DNA of 47,357 nt from Sulfurovum sp. Lineage in GTDB: Bacteria; Campylobacterota; Campylobacteria; Campylobacterales; Sulfurovaceae. The notes under the pieces are model-generated. The model searched no databases. It saw only the letters and a list, made by a program, of their open reading frames with translations, and had not been told where the DNA came from. The first letter of the stretch is position 1; each line of letters opens with the position of its first letter. Shown in pieces: positions 12,970-16,555 of this stretch. Where the stretch lies: positions 1-47,357 of the forward strand of contig DYLZ01000004.1 of the NCBI GenBank assembly GCA_020721775.1, written 5' to 3'. The translations under genes were made by a program, and so were the position numbers.

Positions 12970-13936
12970 ACTTAATCTGCCATCGCCTATAGAAACAATA
13001 ACGGTTGATGGTATCTCTTTTTTTCTTAAGAGAGATGACCTTACACATCCGGATTTTTCAGGCAACAAAGCAAGAAAATTGCATTTCTACTTAAATAATC
13101 ATTTTTCATATATAAATAAACTAATATCATATGGTTCTAATCAATCTAATGCAATGTACTCTATGTCGGTTTTGGCTAAATTAAAAGGCTGGGATTTTGA
13201 ATATTACACTGACCATATATCAGAATACTTGAGTCAAAATCCACACGGAAATTATGCCAAAGCTTTAGAAAATGGGATGAAAATAATAACCAATAATGAG
13301 CAATTAGCAGAGTATTGTCACTGCGAGACTTTGAAAAAGTCGTGGCAGTCTAGTGAGTTCAACGGATTGCCACAGTCATTTGGACTTCACAATGACAAAA
13401 GTGTATTATTTATAAATGAGGGCGGCAGGAATAAGGAGGCAAGTTTCGGACTTGAAATAATGGCAAAAGAGATAGTCGATTGGCAGATAGCAAATAAGTT
13501 GCAGGAACTAAAAATATTTTTGCCTAGTGGCACAGGAACTACAGCTTTATTTCTGCAAAAACACTGCTCGCTGATCGCCGCTAGCTACTCACTTCAAACA
13601 CTAGTTTACACAACCCCTTGCGTTGGAGACAAAGAATATCTTATAAAGCAATTCAAAGAGCTTGAAAATAATGAAATATATTATCCAATAATAATAGAGC
13701 CAAAAAAAAAGTATCATTTTGGTAAACTTTATAAAGAACTATATAATATTTGGCTAAAATTGCAAAAACAAACCGGCATTGAGTTTGATTTGCTTTATGA
13801 CCCCATCGGATGGAGCGTTGTTACGGATAATTTAGATATATTTTCCAAAAATATGCTATATATTCATCAAGGCGGACTGCTTGGCAATATAAGTATGATA
13901 GAAAGATACAAGAGAAAATTTAAGGATTTGGTATGA
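12956..13936 (+). CDS. PLP-dependent deaminase/desulfhydrase family (ACC deaminase/D-cysteine desulfhydrase-like)
   Basis: The 326-residue protein is a fold-type II PLP enzyme. FLKRDDLTHPDFSGNKARKL contains the N-K-x-R-K motif whose first Lys binds PLP, and YGSNQSNAM corresponds to the family's GG-x-Q-SN-H segment. LPSGTGTTALF should hold the phosphate. Family members degrade D-cysteine or 1-aminocyclopropane-1-carboxylate; which one cannot be told. The start is the TTG at 12956, 14 bases inside fba: no ATG in frame precedes the conserved LPSPIETI segment. It ends in an ATGA overlap with hisD, so fba, this gene and hisD are probably co-transcribed. A 9-base A-run near 13706 stays in frame. 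Confidence 0.8.
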   Translation: MEEIKLNLPSPIETITVDGISFFLKRDDLTHPDFSGNKARKLHFYLNNHFSYINKLISYGSNQSNAMYSMSVLAKLKGWDFEYYTDHISEYLSQNPHGNYAKALENGMKIITNNEQLAEYCHCETLKKSWQSSEFNGLPQSFGLHNDKSVLFINEGGRNKEASFGLEIMAKEIVDWQIANKLQELKIFLPSGTGTTALFLQKHCSLIAASYSLQTLVYTTPCVGDKEYLIKQFKELENNEIYYPIIIEPKKKYHFGKLYKELYNIWLKLQKQTGIEFDLLYDPIGWSVVTDNLDIFSKNMLYIHQGGLLGNISMIERYKRKFKDLV

Positions 13937-15222
13937 AGATAGTAAAAACTAGTGACGCTAATTTTAAAAATGAATTCGAAGAACTATTGCTTAGAGGCAA
14001 GATGGATATAGAAGGAGTTACGGCTATAGTCTCATCACTTTTAAATGATATAAGAACAAATAAGAATAGCGCTCTTAAAGCCCAAATAGCAAGATTTGAC
14101 AGGTGGGAGCCAAAAGACGATAGTGAACTTTTGGTAAATGCGGATGATATGAAAAGAGCATATGGCAATATAGACAGTGATCTTAGAAATGCAATGCGCT
14201 TGGCTTATGATAGGATAAAAGCCTACCATGAAAAACTCCTTCCTAAAACATGGATGGACAAAGAGGATAACGGCATTATTCTTGGACAAAAAGTAACGGC
14301 AGTTGATAGAGCAGGGCTATATATCCCAGGAGGCAAAGCCGCATATCCCAGCTCACTTTTGATGAATGCGATCCCGGCAATTGTTGCAGGCGTTAAAGAG
14401 ATAGTAGTTTGCACACCAACACCTGATAATGAGATAAATGAACTTCTTCTTGCAGCTTGTCATCTGTGTGGTGTAACTAAAGTATTTAAAGTCGGTGGAG
14501 CATCGGCTATTGCTGCTATGGCTTACGGAACTGAAACCATACCAAAAGTTGATGTTATAACAGGACCCGGTAATATTTTTGTAGCAACTGCAAAAAAACT
14601 AGTTTACGGCGAAGTAAATATAGATATGATAGCAGGACCAAGCGAGATAGGTATCTTAGCAGATGAAAATGCAAGGGCAGATTATGTAGCTATGGATCTG
14701 CTTTCTCAAGCAGAGCATGATGAAATGGCAAGTTCTATTTTGATCACTACAAGTATAGACCTAGCAAATAATGTAAGTAAAAAAGTCGATGAATTTTTAA
14801 ATACGCTTAGCCGTGAGATAATAGCTCGTAAATCCATAAATGAACGAGGAGCTATCATAGTAACTTCATCTATGAATGAAGCAGTGGAGCTTATGAATGA
14901 GATAGCACCGGAGCACCTTGAAGTTATGACAAAAGAGCCTTTTAAATTACTTGACACTATTCGTCATGCAGGTGCTATATTTTTAGGAGAATATACTCCT
15001 GAGCCTATTGGAGATTATATAGCAGGACCAAATCATACATTGCCAACCGGGGGAACTGCCAAATTTTATTCGCCTCTTAGTGTTGAGCATTTTTTGAAAA
15101 AATCATCGATTATATCAATGAGTCAAAACGGCATAAATGAAATTGGCAAGGCTTGCGCATTGATAGCACATACCGAAGGGCTTACAGCGCATGAACAGAG
15201 TGTAAAAATGAGATTGCTATAA
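13933..15222 (+). CDS. hisD: Histidinol dehydrogenase
   Basis: HisD performs the last two oxidations of histidine synthesis, turning histidinol to histidine with two NAD+. The 429 residues contain AGLYIPGGKAAYPS, ITGPGNIFVATAKKLV, AGPSEIGILADE, the zinc-binding QAEHDEMA segment, the catalytic EHLEVM, and GPNHTLPTGGTAKFYSPL near the end. Its ATG overlaps the preceding stop in ATGA, which suggests translational coupling. No other his gene is in the window. It runs convergently into the tRNA cluster with only 22 bases between the stop and the first tRNA end. Confidence 0.97.
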   Translation: MKIVKTSDANFKNEFEELLLRGKMDIEGVTAIVSSLLNDIRTNKNSALKAQIARFDRWEPKDDSELLVNADDMKRAYGNIDSDLRNAMRLAYDRIKAYHEKLLPKTWMDKEDNGIILGQKVTAVDRAGLYIPGGKAAYPSSLLMNAIPAIVAGVKEIVVCTPTPDNEINELLLAACHLCGVTKVFKVGGASAIAAMAYGTETIPKVDVITGPGNIFVATAKKLVYGEVNIDMIAGPSEIGILADENARADYVAMDLLSQAEHDEMASSILITTSIDLANNVSKKVDEFLNTLSREIIARKSINERGAIIVTSSMNEAVELMNEIAPEHLEVMTKEPFKLLDTIRHAGAIFLGEYTPEPIGDYIAGPNHTLPTGGTAKFYSPLSVEHFLKKSSIISMSQNGINEIGKACALIAHTEGLTAHEQSVKMRLL

Positions 15223-15244: not shown

Positions 15245-15320
15245 TGGTGTCCCGTCTAGGTCTCGAACCTAGGACCCTCTCATTAAGAGTGAGATGCTCT
15301 ACCAACTGAGCTAACGAGAC
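15245..15320 (-). tRNA. tRNA-Lys (anticodon CTT)
   Basis: On the minus strand the cloverleaf folds fully: acceptor GTCTCGT with ACGGGAC, D-arm GCTC/GAGC, anticodon stem TCTCA/TGAGA with loop CTCTTAA, T-arm CTAGG-TTCGAGA-CCTAG, discriminator A and encoded CCA. The anticodon CTT reads AAG. It differs at six positions from the two tRNA-Lys(TTT) copies in the same cluster and sits last in the transcript. Confidence 0.93.
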
Positions 15321-15341
15321 AGAATTAAAAAAATTGTAAAA

Positions 15342-15418
15342 TGGCGCGGTGGACGGGGCTTGAACCCGCGACCCCCTGCGTGACAGGCAGGTAATCTAAC
15401 CAGCTGATCTACCACCGC
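15342..15418 (-). tRNA. tRNA-Asp (anticodon GTC)
   Basis: Acceptor GCGGTGG pairs with CCACCGC. The anticodon arm is CCTGC-CTGTCAC-GCAGG, the T-arm is GCGGG-TTCAAGC-CCCGT, and GCCA is encoded at the end. It appears identical to the copy at 15756-15832, and the spacers on the Lys side of both copies are nearly identical too. Confidence 0.95.
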
Positions 15419-15471
15419 ACTAAGAAGTGTTTATTGAAATTCTAACTAAAGAATTTAAGAATCATATCTTA

Positions 15472-15547
15472 TGGTGGTCCCTGCAAGACTCGAACTTGCG
15501 ACATCTACCTTGTAAGGGTAGCGCTCTACCAACTGAGCTAAGAGACC
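15472..15547 (-). tRNA. tRNA-Val (anticodon TAC)
   Basis: Acceptor GGTCTCT pairs with AGGGACC. The anticodon arm is CTACC-CTTACAA-GGTAG, the T-arm is TGCAA-GTTCGAG-TCTTGCA in outline, and ACCA closes the gene. It appears identical to the copy at 15834-15909. Confidence 0.95.
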
Positions 15548-15558
15548 ATATATTGGTT

Positions 15559-15634
15559 TGGCGACCCTTAGAGGATTTGAACCTCTGTGTCTGCGTTGAA
15601 AACGCAACATCCTTGGCCACTAGATGAAAGGGTC
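15559..15634 (-). tRNA. tRNA-Glu (anticodon TTC)
   Basis: Acceptor GACCCTT pairs with AAGGGTC. The anticodon arm is TTGCG-TTTTCAA-CGCAG, the T-arm is AGAGG-TTCAAAT-CCTCT, and GCCA is encoded. It is the only member of the cluster present once, and it separates the two Val-Asp-Lys blocks. Confidence 0.95.
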
Positions 15635-15659
15635 ATCTAGATCCGAACAGTCATAAAAG

Positions 15660-15735
15660 TGGTGTCCCGTCTAGGATTCGAACCTAGGGCCCCCTCATTA
15701 AAAGTGAGATGCTCTACCGACTGAGCTAACGAGAC
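15660..15735 (-). tRNA. tRNA-Lys (anticodon TTT), copy nearer hisD
   Basis: Acceptor GTCTCGT/ACGGGAC, anticodon loop CTTTTAA, T-arm CTAGG-TTCGAAT-CCTAG and encoded ACCA. It appears identical to the copy at 15932-16007. The anticodon stem TCTCA/TGAGG has one wobble pair. Confidence 0.95.
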
Positions 15736-15755
15736 AGAATTAAAAAAATGTAAAA

Positions 15756-15832
15756 TGGCGCGGTGGACGGGGCTTGAACCCGCGACCCCCTGCGTGACAG
15801 GCAGGTAATCTAACCAGCTGATCTACCACCGC
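15756..15832 (-). tRNA. tRNA-Asp (anticodon GTC), second copy
   Basis: Same sequence as the gene at 15342-15418, with encoded GCCA. Only one base (15833) separates it from the preceding tRNA-Val, so the two must be cut from a joint transcript. Confidence 0.95.
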
Positions 15833-15833
15833 A

Positions 15834-15909
15834 TGGTGGTCCCTGCAAGACTCGAACTTGCGACATCTACCTTGTAAGGGTAGCGCTCTACCAACTGAGC
15901 TAAGAGACC
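15834..15909 (-). tRNA. tRNA-Val (anticodon TAC), second copy
   Basis: Same sequence as the gene at 15472-15547, with encoded ACCA. It directly abuts tRNA-Asp on its 3' side. Confidence 0.95.
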
Positions 15910-15931
15910 AAAAATAATTAATTCTCAAACA

Positions 15932-16007
15932 TGGTGTCCCGTCTAGGATTCGAACCTAGGGCCCCCTCATTAAAAGTGAGATGCTCTACCGACTGAGCTA
16001 ACGAGAC
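15932..16007 (-). tRNA. tRNA-Lys (anticodon TTT), first gene of the cluster
   Basis: Same sequence as 15660-15735. It is the promoter-proximal gene of the cluster; the predicted transcription start is about ten bases upstream. Confidence 0.95.
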
Positions 16008-16024: not shown

Positions 16025-16053
16025 ATTATAGCTTAATATGGCTTTGATGTCAA
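16025..16053 (-). promoter_or_regulatory. Consensus sigma-70 promoter of the tRNA cluster
   Basis: On the minus strand TTGACA (16053-16048) and TATAAT (16030-16025) are both perfect, with the optimal 17-base spacer. The first tRNA begins 18 bases after the -10. Such a match is exceptional in this AT-rich window, where most promoters show only a -10, and it fits strong constitutive stable-RNA transcription. Confidence 0.9.
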
Positions 16054-16069: not shown

Positions 16070-16555
16070 CTATATCAAATTTAGCTTTTTGGATATAAGA
16101 TCTATAGCAAAATCAACAGATTTTTTTTGTACAGTTTCTCTATCGCCTTTAAATAAGCAGTGATGAATATCAGTTACTCCACTTGGCTCTATAATGCCAA
16201 TAAATACTGTTCCGACAGGCTTAAGCTTCGTTCCTCCGGTTGGTCCCGCTATGCCTGATACTGCAATTGCATAGTCTGAATTTGCCATTTTGACAATTCC
16301 TTTTAACATTTCTTCCACACACTCACCGCTAACGGCGCCAAATTTTTCTAATGTGTTGCTTGAGACTTCAAGCCATTTATGTTTTATATCGTTAGAGTAA
16401 GAAACCACAGAGCCGTTAAATACATCAGATGCGCCGCCGATAGAAGTAAATGCCGCTGCGATCCTTCCGCCTGTGCAGCTTTCGGCAAATGATATAGTTT
16501 GTTTTTGCTCTCTTAATTTATTAATGATCTGTATTAGTGTTTGTTGTTGTTTCAT
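16070..16555 (-). CDS. pncC: CinA C-terminal-domain nicotinamide-nucleotide amidase
   Basis: The 161-residue protein is the stand-alone amidase domain that hydrolyses nicotinamide mononucleotide to nicotinate mononucleotide, recycling NAD breakdown products. SFAESCTGGRIAAAFTSIGGASDVFNGSVVSYSN carries the catalytic Ser and the conserved S-C-T-GG motif, and AVSGIAGPTGGT and KPVGTVFIGI are typical of the family. The N-terminal MoCF-like domain of full CinA is absent. The ATG at 16555 precedes KQQQTLIQIINKLREQKQT. It reads toward the tRNA promoter, in the same direction. Confidence 0.9.
   Translation of the reverse strand: MKQQQTLIQIINKLREQKQTISFAESCTGGRIAAAFTSIGGASDVFNGSVVSYSNDIKHKWLEVSSNTLEKFGAVSGECVEEMLKGIVKMANSDYAIAVSGIAGPTGGTKLKPVGTVFIGIIEPSGVTDIHHCLFKGDRETVQKKSVDFAIDLISKKLNLI

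Follow-up and report, generated by a model that had tools for sequence, protein, structure and literature searches.

The tRNA-Lys(CTT) gene that closes a cluster of eight tRNA genes in a Sulfurovum genome was most probably born recently, on the spot and in this lineage, through copying of an Asp-spacer-Lys stretch followed by a change of the anticodon. Judging from sequence comparisons, we assign this reading a probability of roughly 0.8. The window that was analysed is a stretch of 47,357 nucleotides, contig C54 of a 1.2 Mb draft genome in 67 contigs. The named hits of its HisD belong to Sulfurovum and relatives, which places the genome in the Sulfurovaceae. ARAGORN places exactly eight tRNA genes on the minus strand at 15245–16007, in the transcription order Lys(TTT)-Val(TAC)-Asp(GTC)-Lys(TTT)-Glu(TTC)-Val(TAC)-Asp(GTC)-Lys(CTT), the order and anticodons given in the initial annotation. 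A sigma-70 promoter at 16053–16025, upstream of the first Lys gene, is the sole strong one for the cluster and has a counterpart at the same place in congeners. The gene at 16070–16555 is one that we take to be cinA-like by reading the sequence alone. The features are as follows.

13933–15222, plus strand: hisD, convergent, downstream of the new Lys(CTT) gene (sequence reading and homologues)
15245–15320, minus strand: tRNA-Lys(CTT), the putative new gene (ARAGORN); the junction is without Lys in G007, G002, G008, G009 and G010
15321–15341, minus strand: Asp-Lys spacer 2, TTTTACAATTTTTTTAATTCT, apparently copied; none of 20,000 shuffles matches as well
15342–15418, minus strand: tRNA-Asp(GTC) copy 2, with A57 (ARAGORN); the orthologue in the sister G007 has G57
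15472–15547, minus strand: tRNA-Val(TAC) copy 2 (ARAGORN)
15559–15634, minus strand: tRNA-Glu(TTC) (ARAGORN); kept at the same place in congeners
15660–15735, minus strand: tRNA-Lys(TTT) copy 2, from which the CTT gene probably derives (ARAGORN); six differences from the CTT copy
15736–15755, minus strand: Asp-Lys spacer 1, TTTTACATTTTTTTAATTCT; almost identical to spacer 2 and unlike the spacers of congeners
15756–15832, minus strand: tRNA-Asp(GTC) copy 1, with A57 (TTCAAGC) (ARAGORN); A57 is otherwise found only in copy 2
15834–15909, minus strand: tRNA-Val(TAC) copy 1, identical to copy 2 (ARAGORN)
15932–16007, minus strand: tRNA-Lys(TTT) copy 1, which opens the cluster, identical to copy 2 and to the first Lys of the sister G007 (ARAGORN)
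16025–16053, minus strand: sigma-70 promoter, TTGACA-17-TATAAT, 12/12 consensus positions; kept in congeners
16070–16555, minus strand: presumed cinA-like gene (CinA C-terminal type), upstream of the tRNA genes, with synteny kept in the genus

Within the window the two Val genes, the two Asp genes and the two Lys(TTT) genes are identical in pairs, as had been claimed for Val and Asp. The Asp-Lys spacers measure 20 and 21 bases, and the single base by which they had been said to differ is one inserted A; they agree at 20 of 21 positions, a match that none of 20,000 shuffles equalled. The likeness does not extend to the remainder of the cluster. The Val-Asp spacers, of 1 and 53 bases, are unrelated to each other, the sequences that follow the second and the third Lys are unrelated, and the similarity of the copied stretch stops at the CCA of Lys.

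Comparison with related species separates an old part of the cluster from a new one. In G002, G008, G009 and G010 a complete seven-gene cluster, Lys-Val-Asp-Lys-Glu-Val-Asp, lies between the cinA-like gene and hisD and ends in Asp without a terminal Lys; a named Sulfurovum locus (L109) holds the same seven tRNA genes. In G007, the nearest relative compared (HisD 95% identical), the middle of the cluster is unassembled, and contig C36 starts inside the second Asp, after which non-tRNA sequence without a Lys leads up to hisD. The extra Lys copy is thus absent from the orthologous place in all five congeners with a readable junction, and no second Lys(CTT) was found among the 40 tRNAs of the window genome. 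Because the congener clusters have the Val-Asp doubling without the last Lys, on the evidence of gene order the doubling is old and common to the genus and other Sulfurovaceae, and the terminal Lys alone is new. The initial annotation had proposed that Val-Asp-Lys was duplicated as one block and that an AAG-reading Lys tRNA was recently born by duplication and anticodon change. The first idea finds no support, given the unrelated Val-Asp spacers and the genus-wide doubling, which leave only Asp-spacer-Lys as the recent copy. The second stands, given the lack of the extra Lys in four congener clusters and at the Asp-hisD junction of G007, and the fact that the window Lys(CTT) is the only one found in the genus. 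In several congeners (L073, L072 and L075) the cluster and hisD are separated by a gene for dodecin (assigned to Pfam PF07311 on L073), which neither the window nor G007 has.

A pattern search for Lys genes in 175 genomes of the family found at least one in 134 and none in 41. Lys(CTT) occurred in two of the 175, the window genome and G493, the latter with another body and another context (L264, 2264–2339, on a short contig). The same search returned seven Lys matches in G495 and three in G307 instead of two, perhaps from tRNA arrays on mobile elements.

Two markers bear on when the copying took place. The Asp-Lys spacer varies across species in both sequence and length, with 20 bases here, 25 in G008 and 6 in G002, G009 and G010. 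A57 is present in both window Asp genes, and G57 in all other Asp genes read (genus and named Sulfurovum loci, including the second Asp of G007). By these markers, the Asp-spacer-Lys stretch is a recent copy, made after the split from G007, and this copying would be the reason for both the likeness of the spacers and the shared Asp A57. We propose that, after that split, a stretch running from the first Asp across the spacer and up to the last base of the second Lys(TTT) was copied and placed over or next to the second Asp, the two identical Asp genes of 77 bases presumably serving as the sites of recombination. The outcome, an extra Lys between Asp and hisD, is what the comparison of species displays. 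Either conversion, or unequal exchange followed by deletion, may account for the copying. The extra Lys would then have gained U34C plus five other substitutions compatible with the fold, yielding a Lys(CTT) expected to read AAG only. By what is established for tRNAs, its transcription would start at the one promoter that precedes the first Lys, the ordinary LysRS would charge it, and it would decode AAG jointly with the modified UUU tRNA. In G010 and L109 the long Val-Asp spacers are near identical within a species and different between species; conversion between the two Val-Asp blocks, as ongoing concerted evolution, seems from these spacers to be usual in the family.

Six substitutions, the number that had been counted before, set the Lys(CTT) gene apart from the local Lys(TTT): C17T, T34C, G43A, C47T, A59G and T60A, the wobble base being among them. 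G43A converts U27·G43 to U27-A43, the predicted gain of a Watson-Crick pair in the anticodon stem, and the perfect fold claimed for the gene was borne out: 21 of 21 stem pairs hold, none of the six changes breaks pairing and, the wobble base aside, conserved positions are spared. The acceptor, D and T stems are those of the local Lys(TTT). The gene has the attributes of a tRNA-Lys, namely a cloverleaf with paired stems, the conserved loop positions, a CUU anticodon with U35 and U36, and A73, and it scores 67.3 bits against RF00005 (cut-off 29).

If the gene were a decaying, non-functional extra copy that merely happens to carry CTT, its changes should not all be so harmless. In a simulation of six random substitutions, all stems stayed intact in 2.9% of cases, and the stems together with a list of conserved positions drawn up by ourselves in 0.06%. 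Because six random changes so rarely spare both, the pattern argues for selection on the sequence, and a probability of 0.0006, together with the retained encoded CCA, U35, U36, A37 and A73, makes decay very improbable. What speaks for decay is the lack of an evident task. AAG makes up 15.6% of Lys codons in the window genome, 16.9% in G007, 14.4% in G008 and 27.9% in G010, so that its use here is not above that of G007 and is far below that of G010, which, like G008, is without Lys(CTT). Furthermore, homologues of MnmE, MnmG and MnmA are present in the window genome and in congeners, and the UUU tRNA should therefore carry the usual U34 modifications and read AAG. A rise in AAG use and a loss of U34 modification were accordingly both rejected as drivers, the former on the codon counts and the latter on the Mnm homologues. 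Since no AAG demand is visible, the new Lys(CTT) looks, from its genomic setting, redundant or fine-tuning at most.

An old or unrelated Lys(CTT) in relatives had been named in advance as evidence against a recent origin. Such genes do exist in some other families of the Campylobacterales, namely f10, f20 (Sulfurospirillaceae), f14 and f13 (g86), and in one of them at the same slot; none lies within the genus, and that of G493, the one other case in the family, is unrelated. The genes of the other families resemble the window gene in decoding type and in the frequent T47 and loss of T60, but differ from it in stems and flanks. Those of f20, f14 and f13 stand alone, whereas the window gene is part of the cluster. 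The f10 gene shares with it the slot after Val-Asp, as in locus L080, which reads Lys-Val-Asp-Lys-Glu-Val-Asp-Lys(CTT)-Glu(CTC). Relative to the local Lys(TTT), the f10 type of L084 and L090 shows the five loop changes of the new gene, base for base, and differs in addition at three compensated stem pairs.

These likenesses raise the alternative that the ancestor of the order already had Lys(CTT) at this slot and that almost all Sulfurovaceae have since lost it, while the window genome retained it and later homogenised the Asp gene and spacer by conversion from the first copy. The shared slot in L080 and the match at five of five changed loop positions favour such an old gene, and a joint clade is above rejection in the AU test (p 0.14). 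It would nevertheless require independent losses in the sister and across a family where any Lys(CTT) occurs in two of 175 genomes, and the gene is not found at the same place in close relatives: five junctions lack it, and 173 of the 175 family genomes are without Lys(CTT), 41 of these being without any Lys by pattern. Stem 49-65 of f10 differs from that of the new gene, as mostly do stems 28-42 and 2-71, and the new gene has the local stems. It shows six differences to the local Lys(TTT) and seven to the nearest f10 Lys(CTT). A tree built without column 34 groups it with the Lys(TTT) of its own genus and sets the f10 and f20 Lys(CTT) apart as a separate supported clade. The AU test gave p 0.14 when the new gene was joined with the main f10 and f20 Lys(CTT) and p 0.05 when it was joined with all f10 types, values that with 76 columns are weak either way. 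A joint clade of all Lys(CTT) was not favoured, yet at p 0.15 it falls short of rejection. One position counts against local birth: Lys(CTT) has T17, whereas the local and G007 Lys(TTT) have C17, and local birth therefore requires that T17 arose by reversion or that the parents were converted afterwards. Taken together, synteny, the state of the sister G007, the spacer, the A57 of both Asp genes and the stems speak for local birth rather than shared ancestry with f10 as far as the sequences allow a choice, and we regard the old-gene alternative as unlikely.

Recombination of a Lys(CTT) from another bacterium into the cluster would also explain loops like those of f10, and Arg(CCT) and Thr(CGT), two more tRNAs with C34 in the window genome, are lacking in G008 and G010. 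Against such a transfer, the stems and the spacer are local, this body with CTT occurs in no genome of the order survey, and a 27-base core of the gene has no exact match in viral contigs; the chance that the gene was acquired in this way appears slight. A phage origin was rejected on the same viral comparison.

The match of the loops to f10 may instead reflect repeated adjustment, to judge from the sequences. Among the distinct sequences compared, all 18 Lys(TTT) but 3 of 19 Lys(CTT) retain T60, and T47 is seen in 4 of the former and 14 of the latter, the sequences being related and not independent. It is conceivable, though we consider it rather doubtful, that every birth of a Lys(CTT) in the order brought the same loop alterations in its wake (T47, loss of T60 and often of A59). 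The wobble base would then dictate the elbow loops, and the window gene would repeat, very recently, a co-adaptation that had happened before.

Local birth of Lys(CTT) is a well-documented case of an already known route to new bacterial tRNA types. A synteny-based survey of 61 Enterobacteriaceae traced only one to four isoacceptor anticodon shifts (both figures appear in the paper); in eukaryotes, the positions that covary with the anticodon in such shifts lie in the D, variable (47/48, involving U) and T (57, 59) loops (Rogers and Griffiths-Jones 2014, PMC3923123). The present case shares the wobble change in a syntenic isoacceptor and the extra changes in these three loops, here at 17, 47, 59 and 60. 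It differs in that the shift follows a traceable local duplication and in that covarying bacterial sites were not analysed in that study. Laboratory duplications of 45–290 kb carrying serTGA involved no anticodon switch, a later switch being proposed as one possible fate of a duplicated tRNA gene (Ayan, Park and Gallie 2020, PMC7661048). Both systems entail the birth of a tRNA gene by duplication; unlike the laboratory events, the one described here spans about 100–170 bases, took place in nature and includes the switch. A natural bacterial anticodon switch in which the parent gene, the copied flank and the unduplicated sister are all visible is rarely reported. The case leaves ideas about decoding unchanged and offers a synteny-dated example, which also hints that changes in the loops go with the one at the wobble base.

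Other tRNAs of the same genome deserve mention. Arg(CCT) lies downstream of Ser(GGA) (L262, 630–705; G000:C8) and Thr(CGT) near a contig end (L261, 706–782; G000:C45), and neither is found in G008 or G010; relatives of the Arg(CCT) gene at 86–93% identity are common in other Sulfurovaceae genera. In three of three genomes examined (L211, L222 and L240), the sole CGN-reading Arg tRNA besides TCG has the anticodon GCG and not the usual ACG, which suggests that CGY codons are decoded without inosine.
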